Source: Nitrospira sp. MA-1 (GTDB taxonomy: Bacteria > Nitrospirota > Nitrospiria > Nitrospirales > UBA8639). Taken from it: a DNA stretch of 64,000 nt. Each line of letters opens with the position of its first letter. Within the stretch, counting starts at the first letter, position 1. Where the stretch lies: the NCBI GenBank assembly GCA_032139905.1, contig JAQJDB010000007.1:1612001-1676000 (forward strand), in the 5' to 3' direction. The notes under the pieces were generated by a model. The model ran no database searches. It was given only the letters and a program-made list of their open reading frames with translations, and had not been told where the DNA came from. Below are positions 1-60,107 of this stretch, piece after piece. A program made the position numbers and the translations under genes.

Positions 1-546
1 GGAAACATAGAGCCTGCCGTAATTCCCATATATCTTAATTCATTGATGACCTTCTCTCGATCACAGATCGGAAGATCAATTGCTGATAAATAAATTTTCC
101 CATTTGATTCTTTTGATTTTATATAAGATTCTATGTCATCGATATTGGTTACAGTGGAAGCTGCTTGTTGGGAATCATTCGTTCATTCTCAATTGCTAAA
201 AACTCTCCAATTGAAAAATAGGGAGTTGGATGCGATAAAAGCATGCTTTGAGTTCCGTCCTCTTTCCACTGCTCTTGATCGAATATTAGAATTCTAATCG
301 TTTCTTCTCAACGCAGAATGAGGGTTTATTGGCAACAGGAGGCTTGTGCGGAACCGAAGGGAGCGGCTTTTATCAGATGTTTTGAATAAGGCTACCGTAG
401 TTGGGAAATTTTGATCCTGTTCAATTAAATACGCTACCCCTTGGAAGCATGTGGGCCTTTCATCAATATTAAGGATAATAGTTCCACTTGTGTCTCCGAT
501 GTAATTTCCTATCCACTGACCCTTGATTAATCAAATTCCCATCCAT
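1..546 (-). pseudogene. Broken FRG-domain protein gene (partial at window edge)
   Basis: Reading the minus strand from 546, a frame starts MDGNLINQG, then needs a one-base shift to continue WIGNYIGDTSG and NIDERPTCFQG. This resembles the N-terminal region of FRG-domain proteins. It stops at 294-296. A second piece (RILIFDQEQW, FSIGEFLAIENERMIP) and a third after another one-base shift (STVTNIDDIESYI, LPICDREKVINELRYMGITAG, to position 1) match the region after the FRG core. The core with its usual QH-G-PT-LLDW motif is missing, so the gene has an internal deletion and two frameshifts. The 3' end lies outside the window. FRG proteins have no settled function; some occur near defence or toxin loci. 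The family call rests on recalled motifs, but three separate fragments in the right order support it. Confidence 0.62.
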
Positions 547-52858: not shown

Positions 52859-54961
52859 TTAGTGTGAGGAAACGGCTTCTTTTTCTTTTTTATGTTCTTC
52901 CACTATTCGATTTAGGCAATCCTTCGGAACTTCCTCGTAACCCGAAAATTCCATCACATAAATGCCCTTTCCGGCAGTCATCGACGTTAAGGATGGAGCA
53001 TATTTCAGCATTTCCGCTAGAGGCACAAAGGCCTTCACGATTTGTTTATGTCCTTTCGTCGCCATTCCCTGTATGCGTCCCCGCCGTGAGTTAAGATCTC
53101 CAATCACGGTTCCCATCAAATCATCTGGAACTAGGACTTCTACCGACATGATTGGTTCAAGAAGGGTGCTTTGAGCAGAATCCAGGGCATGCTTGAGGGC
53201 CATTGATCCTGCCACTTTAAAGGCCATCTCGGAAGAATCGACGGGATGATGAGATCCGTCATAGACAGCCACACGGATATCCACGATGGGAAACCCGGCA
53301 ACAATACCATGCTGCAGTGCTTCGATCACGCCCTTTTCCACTGCAGGGATAAAATTTCGTGGAATGACACCACCAACAATGTTGTTGTGAAATTCAAATC
53401 CGGTCCCACGCGGAAGAGGTTCAATTTGTAGCCAACAATCTCCATATTGTCCATGCCCACCGGTTTGCTTTTTATATTTCCCTTGCGCCTGAGCCATCCG
53501 ATGGATCGTCTCCTTATAGGGAACTTTCGGCATATGCAAATCCACTTCCACTCCATACTTGCGCCTCAGCTTATCTAAAGTGGCCTCAAGGTGACCCTGC
53601 CCTACCCCACTCAACAACATTTCTTTTGTCTCTTCATTCCTTAGAAACTCAAGTGACGGATCTTCTTCGACTAACTTATGAAGACCTAAACTGACCTTGT
53701 CAATTTCATTCTTGCTTTTCACTTCTAAGGCATAAGACATGACCGGGCGTGATATTTTCAGGCATGGGAATATGATGGAATGTCGTTCATCACAAATGGT
53801 GTCACCGGTTTGAGTGTCCTTTAATTTACCGATTGCCACAATATCTCCCGCAGAAACTTGATGAACCTGGTGATGTTTCTTGCCAATGGAAAAGAAGAGA
53901 TGCCCACCCTTCTCCCTGGTCTGCCGGGAGGCATTATAAAACCCTGAATCTGCCTGTAAGGTTCCGGACAGCACTCGCACAAATGAAAGACGGCCCATAA
54001 AAGGATCGATAGTGGTTTTGAAAACGAAGGCTGAAAACGGATCATTTGGATCAGATTTTCGTTGACCTTCATCATGTGTCTGGGGTTGCTGCCCGACGTG
54101 TGGATGGAGACTGGAACGGTCGGAAGGGGATGGGAGAAACCGTTGTACTGCAGCCAGCAAGGATGTTGTTCCAATATTGTGAATAGCCGATCCGCACAAC
54201 ACCGGAACAAGCTTCCGTTCCAATGTGCCGATCGTCAGACCATCACGCAAATCTTCGTCTGAGATTTCACCCTGGGAGAGATATTTCTCCACCAATTGAT
54301 CATTCGTTTCTGCCACCTGTTCCATGGCACGGCGCCGGAATTCATTCGCAATGGGTTGATGTTCTGCAACAATCTCGGTTTGCTGGATTTTTGTCGTGCC
54401 GGAAAGCGGAGTGATGACATTCCTCGAAATGAGATCAATCACCCCGGTCGGCATGGCCCCCTCTCCAACCGGGATCGTGATTGGGACTCCGGTGAATCCC
54501 AATGTTTTCTCACACTCCGCCAAAATCGAGCGATAGTCCGCTCCCTCTTTATCCAGCTCATTAATAAACAGGAGACAGGGAGTTTCGTGTTCCTGAATGA
54601 GATCCCAGACTCGTTCGATTTCGGACCGAAGTCCGGTACTGGCTCCTACAACAAGCACCGCACCATCCACCGCCCTGAGGGCGGATTGAATCTCAAAGGC
54701 ATAATCGCTCATTCCCGGTGTATCAATAATATTGATTTTTGTCCCCTGCCACTCGAACTGACAGATAGCCGAACTGATGGAATGGTGTCTGTGGACTTCC
54801 TCGGGTTCAAAATCACCAATGGTGTTTCCCTGGGAAATGGTCCCCATGGCTGGGATGACTCCAGTGGAAAAGGCCAGTGCTTCACAGAGGGTGGTCTTTC
54901 CTACCCCAGGGTAGGAAGTAATGACCACGTTGCGGATGGATGGGGCGGATTCGTGTGGCAT
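52859..54961 (-). CDS. Elongation factor G-like GTPase (divergent paralogue)
   Basis: The 700-residue protein follows the EF-G plan: a GTP domain, domain II, and domains III to V (the latter with EFHNNIVGGVIPRNFIPAVEKGV and MATKGHKQIVKAFVPLAEM). The nucleotide motifs are altered. G1 is SYPGVGKT instead of the AHIDAGKT form. G3 is DTPGMSDY, without the His of EF-G (DTPGH). G4 is NELD in place of NKxD at residues 134-137. It is therefore not the main translocase but an EF-G-like paralogue (EF-G2 type) with probably changed GTP binding. The role could be ribosome-associated stress work. It is convergent with degQ. Confidence 0.9.
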   Translation of the reverse strand: MPHESAPSIRNVVITSYPGVGKTTLCEALAFSTGVIPAMGTISQGNTIGDFEPEEVHRHHSISSAICQFEWQGTKINIIDTPGMSDYAFEIQSALRAVDGAVLVVGASTGLRSEIERVWDLIQEHETPCLLFINELDKEGADYRSILAECEKTLGFTGVPITIPVGEGAMPTGVIDLISRNVITPLSGTTKIQQTEIVAEHQPIANEFRRRAMEQVAETNDQLVEKYLSQGEISDEDLRDGLTIGTLERKLVPVLCGSAIHNIGTTSLLAAVQRFLPSPSDRSSLHPHVGQQPQTHDEGQRKSDPNDPFSAFVFKTTIDPFMGRLSFVRVLSGTLQADSGFYNASRQTREKGGHLFFSIGKKHHQVHQVSAGDIVAIGKLKDTQTGDTICDERHSIIFPCLKISRPVMSYALEVKSKNEIDKVSLGLHKLVEEDPSLEFLRNEETKEMLLSGVGQGHLEATLDKLRRKYGVEVDLHMPKVPYKETIHRMAQAQGKYKKQTGGHGQYGDCWLQIEPLPRGTGFEFHNNIVGGVIPRNFIPAVEKGVIEALQHGIVAGFPIVDIRVAVYDGSHHPVDSSEMAFKVAGSMALKHALDSAQSTLLEPIMSVEVLVPDDLMGTVIGDLNSRRGRIQGMATKGHKQIVKAFVPLAEMLKYAPSLTSMTAGKGIYVMEFSGYEEVPKDCLNRIVEEHKKEKEAVSSH

Positions 54962-55199
54962 GCGAACCTCCTCTCAATTTTCTTGAATTCTAGGTAGGAG
55001 AGGAAAGAGTGTCAATGGAAAAAGCGAAGTGGGCTGTCAGGAGATCAACGCTCTTTTTATTTTATCGTCAGTGGATCGACAGATAAAAGCCAAGAAAATA
55101 TGCGCCGTGGCTCTAAAAAAAACCATTCAGGCAAAATTTTCCTAGTAAAGTCCAAGGTTTTCTCGTAAAAATGGTTCTTCGTCTTTTGTCAGAAAATTC

Positions 55200-55215
55200 T
55201 GGCATTCAGGTTGCT
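55200..55215 (+). promoter_or_regulatory. Sigma-54 type -24/-12 promoter
   Basis: TGGCAT (55200-55205), five bases (TCAGG) and TTGCT (55211-55215) match TGGCAC-N5-TTGCW at every position except one. It lies about 205 bases upstream of the fusion gene, on its strand. Confidence 0.65.
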
Positions 55216-55241
55216 CTAGTGTCATATCTAAGAGAGTTGAA

Positions 55242-55280
55242 TTGATACCAACTCCATGGTGGACCATCCACCCGTATCAA
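55242..55280 (+). other. Two-level stem-loop in the 5' leader of the fusion gene
   Basis: TTGATAC (55242-55248) pairs with GTATCAA (55274-55280), enclosing GGTGGA (55258-55263) with TCCACC (55267-55272). Further small hairpins follow, for example GGATC / GATCC near 55348. Confidence 0.45.
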
Positions 55281-55420
55281 TGACCGAAACGATGTAAGTC
55301 GTTCCATCTCTCACCCCTCTTCTATCACAGGCTGATGCCGACGTGAGGATCTTTTGAGATCCAAGGAAAGCTTTGCGTCAAAATCTAGGTATTAACACTT
55401 AAATTCAAGGGAGGGATCGC

Positions 55421-57691
55421 ATGAGCACATTGACACCAGAGTTGGCGGGTATGACTTCAAAGAATCCATTTGCTGGGTTACAGCAGCTCAATGTGGAAGT
55501 ATTTCCTGCTGACTTTTCTGATGTTCGTGGACATTCACCACTTCCCTTCTCTTTGCGGTGCCTAGGAGGGACTTGGGAGGGGTACCTGATTCAATGGGAC
55601 GAGCACAATGTACGATTGCATTTGACTGGATTTCCTCCAATTGAGCTATCGCAGATCATTGAGTGGGAATATCGTATTTCGGATCAGGACCATTCCCTGA
55701 ACACAATCCAGGGAATGATCAAAGATATCCATGTGGAAACGGGTCATACCGCCTGGGAAGGAACAACAAACATTTTTTTACATTGTTCAACTTCGACGGG
55801 TATTAGATTCCTTCCAAATCAAGGAGAGGGACTCGTGGCGTATGGGCACGTTAAGCCAGAAGGCTCGGATTCAGTTTTTGGTTTTGATCCTCGTGAGCAG
55901 GAGAAAGAGTTCAAGGCCGAGTCCATTCATCCCCCAAAAAAGGGCGTGCGCAGTAATCGTCTCACCATTGAAAAAAGCAATGGGCAGAGGATTCGTGCCT
56001 TTCATGACCGACCAATTGAAGAAAATCCAACAGAAGGACCTGTGGTCGTTATTGCCCCTGGATACGGGGAAACGAAGCGGGATTATCTGACCTTGGCATA
56101 TTACTTTGCCAGCAATGGATTTCATGTCGTACGCTATGACCATACCAATCATATCGGCGAAAGTGATGGGCTGCACCATCAAATATGTCTTTCATCAATG
56201 AAGGATGATTTTCAAACCGTGACCCGTTACGTCAGGACAAATTGGCCGGCCTCAGCAATAATCGGTGTGGCCTCAAGTTTAGCGTCACGAGTCGCCCTCA
56301 AAGCCGAGGTTGAATGTCCATCAGTATCCCTCTTGATCATGCTCATGGGCATTGTCAATGTCGAACGCTCCGCTGCCACGGTTCATCAGGAAGATCTCTT
56401 CGCCGGCTATGGTAAGGGACAGTGCCCTGAGTCAGCGAATTTTTTGGGTTTTAATGTGGGAAATCATTTTTTGGGGGATGCTATTGCGAACCAATTTGTC
56501 ACGCTTGAACACACCCTGACTGATGCGGCATCGGTAACCTCTCCCGTCATACTGGTTTCGGCCGAAAAAGATGCCTGGGTGGCCTCCGATGATCTACAGG
56601 CGTTTCGAAACGCATTGGGTCGACGTCTTGAAGAATGGATTGTGGTGCCTAATGCATTGCATCGTCTACAAGAAAACCCCAAAATAGCACGTGAAACTTA
56701 TCGACAACTCATCGCACAGTGCCAAAACCATATCGCACAGACCCCTTCTTCGGCGACGATCCACAATCCCAATCGACTAGACTTGGGACGTCAAAATCGA
56801 CGAGAAAAAATTGCGCAACAACAACAGGCAGAGACCGACGTCGGGGCAGGCTTTTGGCAGGATTACTTGGGCCATTTTCAGTCGGTTGCCAAATGCCGGG
56901 ATTATGTGAAACTCCTCGACCATGCGTTTCATACCTTGGGCCCCATTACTCCTGGCCAAAGAATTCTGGATGCCGGGTGTGGAAATGGCAATGCGGGGTT
57001 GTATTTTGTGAATGGGCTAGTCTCCACCATTTCTCCTGGAATCTCGTGCCTGGAGGAGTCCATTCAGTATGTGGGAATTGATGTCGTTCCTGACGCATTG
57101 AAGCGCGCCCATGAAGCGATGGTCGCAGCCACCACCGAATGGCAACATACCAAGATCTCTTCAACACCTTCTGTCACAAAATCATGGGCACAAGTCGATT
57201 TAGGTCAGCCGCTCCCCTTTCCCGACAACCAATTTGACCGAATTGTCTCTAATTTAGTGATTGGATATGTTCAGGATCCAGGTGCGGCTTTGCGGGAACT
57301 ATATCGAATCCTGGCTCCAGGCGGACGAATGGTCATATCCAATTTAAAACCGAATGGGGATTTTTCCGGGATTTACCAGAGCCTGGTCAGCAATGCGGCC
57401 CTCCCACAGCAAAGGGAGGAAGCACGGGATCTCTTGAATAATTACGGAAAAATCAGACAGGCCGAAAAGGAAGGGCAATTTTGTTTTTTTGATCGAACAC
57501 AATGGGAATGGATCATCAATACTTTGGGCGGTGCAAATGCGGGGATTTTTTCAACGTTTGCAGGACAAGCCTATCTCATCGTATTAGAGAAACCAGTCGT
57601 CTGCGCCCAAGCGCAAAGACCAATGATCCTGAATAAAAAACAATCACCAAGACTAACACCCCTGCCGGGAGCCTTGAAACAAGTGGCATAA
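55421..57691 (+). CDS. Fusion of LuxD-like hydrolase/acyltransferase and SAM methyltransferase
   Basis: The 756-residue protein has three parts. Residues 1-170 form a strand-rich domain of unknown family (PilZ-like, weak). Residues 180-430 resemble LuxD (myristoyl-ACP thioesterase/acyltransferase): VVVIAPGYGETKRDY, GVASSLASR with a probable nucleophile at Ser286, the acid in SAEKDAW at Asp384 and the His in NALHRLQ at His414. Residues 475-700 form a class I methyltransferase with RILDAGCGNGNAG near 515 and ELYRILAPGGRMVISNL. A ribosome site GGGAGGG precedes ATG 55421. A sigma-54 promoter and a structured leader lie upstream, and a membrane histidine kinase follows. The product is unknown; a modified fatty acid or lipid is an inference. 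Confidence 0.88.
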   Translation: MSTLTPELAGMTSKNPFAGLQQLNVEVFPADFSDVRGHSPLPFSLRCLGGTWEGYLIQWDEHNVRLHLTGFPPIELSQIIEWEYRISDQDHSLNTIQGMIKDIHVETGHTAWEGTTNIFLHCSTSTGIRFLPNQGEGLVAYGHVKPEGSDSVFGFDPREQEKEFKAESIHPPKKGVRSNRLTIEKSNGQRIRAFHDRPIEENPTEGPVVVIAPGYGETKRDYLTLAYYFASNGFHVVRYDHTNHIGESDGLHHQICLSSMKDDFQTVTRYVRTNWPASAIIGVASSLASRVALKAEVECPSVSLLIMLMGIVNVERSAATVHQEDLFAGYGKGQCPESANFLGFNVGNHFLGDAIANQFVTLEHTLTDAASVTSPVILVSAEKDAWVASDDLQAFRNALGRRLEEWIVVPNALHRLQENPKIARETYRQLIAQCQNHIAQTPSSATIHNPNRLDLGRQNRREKIAQQQQAETDVGAGFWQDYLGHFQSVAKCRDYVKLLDHAFHTLGPITPGQRILDAGCGNGNAGLYFVNGLVSTISPGISCLEESIQYVGIDVVPDALKRAHEAMVAATTEWQHTKISSTPSVTKSWAQVDLGQPLPFPDNQFDRIVSNLVIGYVQDPGAALRELYRILAPGGRMVISNLKPNGDFSGIYQSLVSNAALPQQREEARDLLNNYGKIRQAEKEGQFCFFDRTQWEWIINTLGGANAGIFSTFAGQAYLIVLEKPVVCAQAQRPMILNKKQSPRLTPLPGALKQVA

Positions 57692-57935: not shown

Positions 57936-60107
57936 GTGAATTTTTACGCCTTCAGCGGACTCCTGAATGGTCTCGCCGCCACGGCCTCCGGCCTTATTGT
58001 TTACGCTAAAAACCCTCGAAGTCCCAAACATCAAGCCTATGCCCTGTATTGTTTAGCTGCCGCCATTTGGGGATATGGTTTTTGCGCCTGGCAGCTTGGG
58101 TCCTCCCACGATCTCGCCCTTTTCTTTGTTCGCTTGCTGATGGTCGGAGCAATCTTTCTTCCCGCCGCCTATCTGTGGCACGTCCTAACCTTATTGGATG
58201 ATGTGGAATCGAACAGATGGATTATCCGTCTTGGATGGGGAACCAGTTTCATTTATTTCTTCGCAAATTTCACCTCCTATTTTGTGGCCGATGTTCATCC
58301 TGTTGGTGATTTTCTCTTTTGGCCGAAGCCTGGGCCTTTTTTTCATTTCTATCTACTGGGGTTTGGCCTATCAACTATTTATGGAACATGGTTGCTCTAC
58401 CATGGAGCACGGAGCAGAACTGGTCCTGAACGTTCGCGGTTTTACCTTCTCACCATCGGATCAGTCATTGCGTATGCAGGGGGAGTGACGACTTTTCCTC
58501 TTTGGTATGGGATTGAGATCCCTCCGAACGGGACAATTCTTCTGACTGTCTATACGTCGGTCGTAGCCTATACACTCCTGCGATACCGGCTCATGGATCT
58601 CGGGACGGCTGTTGAACGAGGCATTACGGGAAGCCTTCTGTTAGCCCTCGTAGCCTTCCCTGCTTATCCGATCCTCCTTCTTGGGCAAAGTCTGTACTTT
58701 GGGGAAATCAATATCGCCTATTCTTTTGTGGAATTGAGCGTATTGCTTATCTTGGTGCTTGGAGCGTCTTCTTTGAAACGGGAAGCCAAAACATTAATCA
58801 CGAAATCATTGTTCAAAGAACGATATGACCGACATGAAACGGTCGTTCATTTTTCTAAATCACTCGTCTCCATTCTGGAATTAAAAGATTTGACGGCAAC
58901 CATCGTGGAATCCATTTGTCCCACATTAGGATTGGAATGGGGAGTCTTATATCTACGAAGTTCCAGCAGTCAGGATTATCGACCGGTATCCAGCTTTGGG
59001 AAATCCACCAATGATCTTCCTGTCCTCTATTTGCAAAAAACTCCTACTTTGTTAGAAATGTGGAGACAAGGCACGTCTTGTTTTGTCATCAATGAATTGG
59101 AACTCTCTACCATCAACTCTGACTCTGAAGCCGTCATCGCGCAACTCGCGGACATTGGAACAGAAGTTTGTTTGCCCTTGGTTAACAAAACACGCCTTTT
59201 AGGGTTTTGTGTGTTTGGGCCCAATACGAAAAGTGGCGGCGGGTATACGACCCAGGATTTGGATTTATTGACGACCCTATCACAGGAAGCTTCCGTGGCA
59301 TTAGACAATGCCTTGCTGTATGAAGAGCTTAAGCGATCACAGTCGTTAGTTCGTCGGACTGATCGGCTTCGTTCTCTGGAGACCATGGCGGGCGGATTAG
59401 CTCACGAAATTAGAAATCCACTGACGTCGATCAAAGCGTTTGTGGATCTGGCACCTGAACGAAAGGATGATGAGCAGTTTCTCGTACGATTCAGCAAGGT
59501 AGTCAAAGAAGATGTGTTCCGAATTGAACGGCTCACGCGGGAGATCTTGGATTATGCCAAACCGATGGAACCGTTTCTCAAGGAAGAAGACCTTAATGAT
59601 ATTGTAGAATCCTGTTTGTATACCCTCAGGATTCGTCCTTCTCACGAGTTGATTGTTGTCGAAACAGATTTAGCCCATGGGTTGCCAAAGGTATTTGCCG
59701 ACCGGCAACAATTAAAGCAGGTGTTTCTTAACCTATTGTTTAATGCCGTGGAAGCCATGCTTCCAGAGGGTGGCGTGTTGACAGTTCGAACTCGAATAAT
59801 TGGCTCAGGTCTGGCTCAGAATTGGGTGCAGGTGGACATTCAAGATACCGGAAAAGGGATTAATCCTGAAGACATCGAGCATATTTTTGATCCTTTTTTT
59901 ACAACAAAACACTTGAGTCAGGAACATGAGGGAACAGGCTTGGGTTTGGCCATTGCACATCAAATTATTCAAGAACATCGTGGAAGTATTGAGGTACAAA
60001 GTGTGAGAGGAGGGGGAGCCACTTTTCTTGTGAACCTCCCAAGCTCACCAGCACCGACATCAGTTTCTCCAACGCAGAGTGTGTTGCCCAATCCGGAACA
60101 CCGATAA
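57936..60107 (+). CDS. Membrane histidine kinase with GAF domain (PrsK-like architecture)
   Basis: The 723-residue protein starts with GTG. About eight hydrophobic segments fill the first 290 residues, in the style of the 7TM sensor domain. A GAF domain spans about 305-475 (RLLGFCVFGPNTKSGGGYTTQDLDLLTTLSQEASVAL). The phosphorylated His lies in GLAHEIRNPLTS near residue 490. The ATPase domain has the N-box LFNAVEAMLPEGG, the G1 DTGKGI, the F box FDPFFTTK and G2 GTGLGLAIAHQII. This order matches kinases such as PrsK, which act through sigma-54 activators. No response regulator lies in the window. Confidence 0.9.
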   Translation: MNFYAFSGLLNGLAATASGLIVYAKNPRSPKHQAYALYCLAAAIWGYGFCAWQLGSSHDLALFFVRLLMVGAIFLPAAYLWHVLTLLDDVESNRWIIRLGWGTSFIYFFANFTSYFVADVHPVGDFLFWPKPGPFFHFYLLGFGLSTIYGTWLLYHGARSRTGPERSRFYLLTIGSVIAYAGGVTTFPLWYGIEIPPNGTILLTVYTSVVAYTLLRYRLMDLGTAVERGITGSLLLALVAFPAYPILLLGQSLYFGEINIAYSFVELSVLLILVLGASSLKREAKTLITKSLFKERYDRHETVVHFSKSLVSILELKDLTATIVESICPTLGLEWGVLYLRSSSSQDYRPVSSFGKSTNDLPVLYLQKTPTLLEMWRQGTSCFVINELELSTINSDSEAVIAQLADIGTEVCLPLVNKTRLLGFCVFGPNTKSGGGYTTQDLDLLTTLSQEASVALDNALLYEELKRSQSLVRRTDRLRSLETMAGGLAHEIRNPLTSIKAFVDLAPERKDDEQFLVRFSKVVKEDVFRIERLTREILDYAKPMEPFLKEEDLNDIVESCLYTLRIRPSHELIVVETDLAHGLPKVFADRQQLKQVFLNLLFNAVEAMLPEGGVLTVRTRIIGSGLAQNWVQVDIQDTGKGINPEDIEHIFDPFFTTKHLSQEHEGTGLGLAIAHQIIQEHRGSIEVQSVRGGGATFLVNLPSSPAPTSVSPTQSVLPNPEHR

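Follow-up and report, generated by a model that had tools for sequence, protein, structure and literature searches.

Several described systems contain parts comparable to those of the locus considered here. LuxD (PF02273), represented by the myristoyl-ACP thioesterase of Vibrio harveyi (1THT), has an alpha/beta-hydrolase fold, and the Ser, Asp and His residues that carry out its catalysis are established. In the PrsK/PrsR system (TIGR02916/TIGR02915), a membrane kinase is paired with a sigma-54 activator, and AtoS/AtoC and ZraS/ZraR are further kinase-regulator pairs. Sigma-54 promoters with an upstream activator motif are known for the PEP-CTERM genes of Proteobacteria (PMC1569441). The PhcB/PhcS quorum-sensing system of Ralstonia pairs a methyltransferase with a membrane kinase and uses methyl 3-hydroxy fatty acids (PMC8578825). 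Finally, PilZ domains (PF07238) carry the c-di-GMP motifs RxxxR or RRxxR and [DN]xSxxG.

Nitrospirales carry out a large share of global nitrite oxidation, and to our knowledge little is known of their signalling apart from acyl-homoserine lactones. Systems of this latter kind are present in Nitrospira (PMC6606698). The window analysed here (the whole stretch of 64,000 nucleotides) comes from the genome of Nitrospira sp. MA-1, which measures 4.76 Mb and is 99.98% complete, and it contains a three-domain fusion gene followed by a gene encoding a membrane histidine kinase (Table 1). With moderate confidence, we interpret this locus as a sigma-54/two-component circuit built around a fatty-acyl thioesterase-methyltransferase, that is, as an enzyme-plus-sensor module of the Nitrospirales. 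The closest named relatives belong to this order, to which the module is nearly confined, and the fusion protein of the Nitrospirales bacterium NPIRA06 shows 91% identity. The module couples a single enzyme to sigma-54 and two-component elements and, in relatives, to c-di-GMP elements as well; it has been kept together over large distances and comprises one branch that is active and another that has apparently been inactivated. We found no paper in the open-licence literature that describes the fusion or that connects LuxD with either Nitrospira or PilZ. If it operates as proposed, the circuit is previously undescribed, and our findings suggest that its output may be a product or signal derived from a fatty acid. 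The locus supplies an enzyme, a promoter, an activator site and a pair of kinase and regulator that are open to testing, and relatives of the module are found in the cultivated species N. defluvii and N. moscoviensis.

Table 1. Features of the locus (nucleotide positions refer to the window, residues to the fusion protein, except for His490 of the kinase)
Feature	Position	Strand	Details
EF-G-like gene	52859-54961	-	divergent from the fusion gene
Sigma-70-like promoter of the EF-G-like gene	55015-54987	-	TTGACA-17-TAGAAT
Candidate activator-binding site (UAS), GGCAAAATTTTCCTAGTAAAGTCCA	55130-55154	+	conserved; activator binding putative
Sigma-54 promoter, TGGCAT-N5-TTGCT, TGGCATTCAGGTTGCT	55200-55215	+	start of transcription expected near 55226
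Leader stem-loop region (predicted)	55232-55312	+	outer GAGAG/CTCTC, inner TTGATAC/GTATCAA
Leader hairpin (predicted), GGATC-TTTT-GATCC with flanking pairs	55347-55362	+	compensatory changes
Palindromic box, TAGGTATTAACACTTA	55386-55401	+	directly ahead of the ribosome-binding site
Fusion gene	55421-57691	+	756 aa: PilZ-like barrel / LuxD-type domain / SAM methyltransferase
Degenerate PilZ-like barrel	residues ~41-144		
LuxD-type acyl transferase/thioesterase domain	residues 183-428		Ser286, Asp384, His414
Class I SAM methyltransferase	residues 498-702		motif LDAGCGNGN
Membrane histidine kinase gene	57936-60107	+	723 aa: HisKA_7TM - GAF - HisKA (His490) - HATPase_c

Is the fusion gene under the control of sigma-54? 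The first-pass annotation had proposed this on the basis of the TGGCAT-N5-TTGCT motif ahead of the gene. The motif has the correct spacing (GG-N10-GC, from the GG of the -24 element to the GC of the -12 element) and is the only perfect match to TGGCAY-N5-TTGCW in the window. Because one-mismatch matches occur there at chance level (4 observed versus 4.6 expected), the window viewed alone provides a weak case for a promoter. The call becomes strong through two tests, genome-wide enrichment and conservation upstream of orthologous genes. First, a search for further sigma-54 promoters, as the same annotation had recommended, yielded 30 perfect sites in the whole genome, including that of the fusion gene, versus 3 for a reversed-pattern control; about half of the 30 lie outside any spanning open reading frame and have a reading frame beginning shortly downstream. 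Second, the promoter is perfect in 23 of the 26 same-family loci with upstream sequence, where it lies 130-250 nt before the orthologous fusion gene. The three remaining loci, all of one genus, carry TGGCAT-N5-ATGCA, and the loci of the N. defluvii type are without the promoter box. In an alignment of 18 sequences with a mean column identity of 61%, 12 of the 16 promoter columns are invariant. The genome also contains rpoN (PF00309, E 8e-17, with an RpoN-box-like C-terminus) and approximately 28 matches of the sigma-54 activator type. Transcription from a sigma-70 site had been named as the competing possibility, and a search of the + strand from 54950 to 55420 revealed no sigma-70-like site. 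The site almost certainly functions as a sigma-54 promoter, and in this respect the annotation holds.

The genes behind the perfect sites include flagellar-type and Hsp20-like genes (labels read from the N-termini) and a gene for a fatty acyl-AMP ligase. The last of these (L062:6996-8759, at ~586.8 kb on G000:C6) has its perfect site 80 nt upstream and is possibly a member of the same lipid-related sigma-54 set. Across the 30 sites (L032-L061), TGGCAT is found 19 times versus 11 for TGGCAC, and nearly all sites end in TTGCT, making the sigma-54 consensus of this genome slightly unlike the textbook TGGCAC-N5-TTGCA. The divergent EF-G-like gene, which has a promoter of its own, is a neighbour kept throughout the family.

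Upstream of the promoter lies a roughly palindromic sequence that we regard as a candidate activator-binding site. Its counterpart in genus g5 is TTATTCCTAGGAATAA, and in the loci of genus g1 it is kept, with many invariant columns, some 45-70 nt ahead of the -24 element. We considered that it might be common to other sigma-54 promoters of the genome and rejected this idea: when the 300 nt preceding each of the other 29 perfect sites were examined, 27 had no TTCCTAGTAA-like match, and the strings at L049 and L056 are only weakly similar to TTCCTAGTAA, leaving no convincing second copy. Downstream of the promoter, the expected start of transcription gives the mRNA a leader of ~195 nt. The stem-loop region is predicted in the alignments of two sub-groups at the same place, with differing sequences and little covariation within each group, and in the second hairpin two-sided changes affect two pairs in 7 of 18 sequences each and a third pair in 5 of 18. 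Because a combined RNA consensus for the hairpin and the palindromic box over 25 loci contained zero pairs, the leader structure, including the stem-loop, is only suggestive. A sequence related to the palindromic box occupies the equivalent position in ~25 loci, across genera. The palindrome pattern TARGTAWNWNNAYYTA is present just once in the genome, versus 12 occurrences for a reversed control, and a palindrome regulon was rejected on this ground; a known riboswitch was also rejected, as an Rfam search of the leader gave no match. Taken together, these elements indicate that the fusion gene is likely to be under dedicated cis-control.

What might the fusion protein do? Its central domain matches Acyl_transf_2 (PF02273) with 96.3 bits, against a gathering cut-off of 20.3, and the V. 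harveyi thioesterase 1THT is the top match both by sequence and by fold. The similarity to LuxD extends over ~245 residues, and Ser286, Asp384 and His414 align one to one with the LuxD triad. This triad is intact in 46 of 46 short-form rows of the alignment, and all of the short forms keep both the triad and the SAM motif. Unlike LuxD itself, the protein reaches 98 bits against a cut-off of 420 for the LuxD equivalog (NCBIfam) and carries PilZ-like and methyltransferase domains, and we noticed neither luxC nor luxE beside the gene. The structures nearest to the methyltransferase domain, Coq5 and RebM, do not fix its substrate. Judging from the domains and their conserved residues, the fusion protein is likely to perform thioesterase plus methyltransferase chemistry.

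These two domains also make plausible the modified lipid or surface product that the first-pass annotation had envisaged. One reading is that the circuit yields a modified membrane lipid or surface product and has no signalling role, and it gains from the PilZ domains and the HD-GYP regulator of related loci, which point to c-di-GMP and to life on surfaces. However, genes for lipid or polysaccharide synthesis are not specifically kept beside the gene pair in all lineages; the neighbours look like housekeeping genes. We regard a role of this kind as a tentative possibility.

The N-terminal domain bears on a different reading, in which the fusion protein was once a PilZ protein and now serves chiefly as a regulatory receptor rather than as an enzyme. 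By hhalign, this domain aligns with clear PilZ domains, located at the same place in relatives, with a probability of 93-97%. Because the full-length model, when searched with Foldseek, returned only hydrolase and methyltransferase folds, the domain was modelled separately, and the resulting model aligned best with the PilZ domain of BcsA (Z 8.8), with weak Foldseek E-values. The evidence for a degenerate PilZ beta-barrel is of moderate strength. In contrast to typical PilZ domains, however, the protein of the window has no match to PF07238, and both c-di-GMP motifs are gone in its family, whereas they are kept in the N. defluvii-type homologues. Binding of c-di-GMP by the window's protein is therefore unlikely. 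The receptor role would fit the long forms found in many Nitrospira, which have gained REC, PAS and PilZ domains and no longer possess the triad, but the window's form and all of the short forms keep the triad and the SAM motif, and the PilZ motif is lost in the window's own form. We consider such a role quite improbable here.

The first-pass annotation covered positions 55200-57691 and described the next gene, which falls outside them, as encoding a membrane GAF kinase of the PrsK type. The GAF domain and the membrane location were borne out; the assignment to PrsK was not. The kinase carries the motifs HEIRNP, DTGKGI and GTGLGL. Against TIGR02916 the kinase scores 150.1 bits (E 9e-44), with a curated cut-off of 300, and it scores higher with the AtoS (222 bits) and ZraS (178 bits) models, neither cut-off being reached. 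It differs from AtoS and ZraS in its sensor, which consists of a 7TM region and a GAF domain. Thus, the kinase is PrsK-like by distant similarity only. If it were PrsK, and if the promoter belonged to a PEP-CTERM/exosortase regulon, the match to TIGR02916 and the presence of a PrsR equivalog in the genome (TIGR02915, 603 bits, cut-off 502.6, at G000:C6:1022948) would be explained, and the promoter with its upstream site would resemble those of the proteobacterial PEP-CTERM genes (PMC1569441). However, in addition to the low score, the PrsR gene lies elsewhere and adjoins a kinase of its own, which is a closer match to PrsK (269 bits), and exosortase (PF09721) had no match in the genome, whereas a control genome did match. 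On score, gene context and the exosortase result we rejected this membership, which we judge to be very improbable, and with it the link to PrsK/PrsR and PEP-CTERM drawn in the annotation. The PEP-CTERM signal PF07589 gave no match in the genome, nor did it in the controls. PrsR and its adjacent PrsK-like kinase (L086:15703-19286, ~1020.7-1024.3 kb on G000:C6) are situated in an exopolysaccharide-type region.

To which regulator, then, does the kinase signal? The fusion gene and the kinase gene adjoin in 11 of 11 homologous regions of our first set and in nearly all second-set loci with downstream sequence. No response regulator adjoins the kinase of the window; 27 related loci have a sigma-54 activator of the NtrC type directly 3' of the orthologous kinase, often followed by a REC-HD-GYP protein. 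This regulator is AtoC-like (522 bits), and at one locus where it is present (L110) the kinase is of the membrane type seen in the window (51% identity). The position of the NtrC-type regulator directly behind the kinase in relatives is our strongest evidence for a step from the window's kinase to a sigma-54 activator, in agreement with the earlier suggestion that kinases of such a kind act on sigma-54 activators, and we consider it likely that the kinase signals to an NtrC-type activator. An orthologue of this NtrC was absent from 49 of 49 genomes of the window's family (f1) searched at E 1e-140. A retained partner in the window's genome was considered and rejected, since the best candidate shows 46% identity, a level common to several activators, and inspection of the receiver domains of the genome's activators did not yield a clear partner. 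Conversely, a perfect sigma-54 site was never seen upstream of the fusion gene at loci with the NtrC-type regulator. As a consequence, activator and promoter never occur together at one locus: signalling from kinase to activator and action of an activator at this promoter are each plausible, and the evidence does not join them. That the activator of this kinase acts at this promoter seems to us somewhat doubtful. Furthermore, the 244-nt gap between the fusion gene and the kinase gene means that their joint transcription is not a given, which counts against the explanation that we prefer.

In the sigma-54/two-component circuit that we prefer, a dedicated NtrC-type activator would bind the candidate upstream site, sigma-54 polymerase would initiate transcription at the leader, and the structured leader and the unique palindromic box would probably provide a second control step. 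The LuxD-type domain would cleave the thioester bond between a fatty acyl group and its carrier, and the fused methyltransferase would methylate the released product or a partner molecule. The 7TM-GAF kinase may monitor the state of the membrane or the cell, possibly including the product of the enzyme, and would phosphorylate the sigma-54 activator. The sequences themselves show the promoter and its conservation, the domains, the triad, the pairing of the two genes and that of kinase and NtrC in relatives, whereas the action of the kinase's activator at this promoter, the substrate and any feedback are inferred.

If the kinase did sense the product, the circuit might amount to signalling by fatty-acid methyl esters, in which the LuxD-type domain frees the acid, the methyltransferase esterifies it and the 7TM kinase senses the ester, giving positive feedback through sigma-54. 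The stable proximity of methyltransferase and sensor kinase and the intact triad of a LuxD-kind thioesterase accord with this idea, and PhcB/PhcS (PMC8578825) offer a precedent, the likeness being one of kinds of part (a methyltransferase, a membrane kinase and possibly a fatty-acid methyl ester). In contrast to PhcB/PhcS, the thioesterase is here fused in and control is by sigma-54. However, the Coq5/RebM-like nearest structures of the methyltransferase are not diagnostic, and in many Nitrospira the enzyme copy adjoining the kinase is without the triad. A PhcB/PhcS-like role is the more exciting reading, but it is unproven, and we consider methyl-ester signalling rather unlikely.

These triad-less copies are homologues of ~1400 aa, composed of REC, PAS, PilZ, LuxD-like and methyltransferase domains, in which the Ser, Asp and His residues have been lost; the kinase beside them has no membrane sensor. 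The long form is apparently an enzyme turned regulator. N. defluvii (FP929003) has two forms, one of 954 aa in which the triad is intact and a long one from which it is missing. Because many genomes carry the long form only, its role cannot simply be to detect what an active copy makes within that cell. One might imagine a previously undescribed kind of autoinduction in the Nitrospirales, whereby the fused enzyme would make a methylated fatty-acid signal, the 7TM kinase would sense it and a sigma-54 activator would raise expression of the synthase, while in many Nitrospira a duplicated and inactivated enzyme, extended by REC, PAS and PilZ domains, would act as an intracellular sensor feeding an NtrC/HD-GYP operon; we think this combination unlikely.

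The long homologues (L064, L067, L069 and L138-L166) have lost the triad in the same way, with the nucleophile Ser replaced by Asp, and their operon includes a kinase together with NtrC-type and HD-GYP regulators. A rare case from outside the Nitrospirales was observed on an Elusimicrobia contig (L160:2596-10125), where a frame-shifted homologue of the fusion gene lies between two kinase genes, followed by a response regulator. In the kinase of the N. defluvii type (L063:10342-13350; 1002 aa), the 7TM sensor region is doubled.
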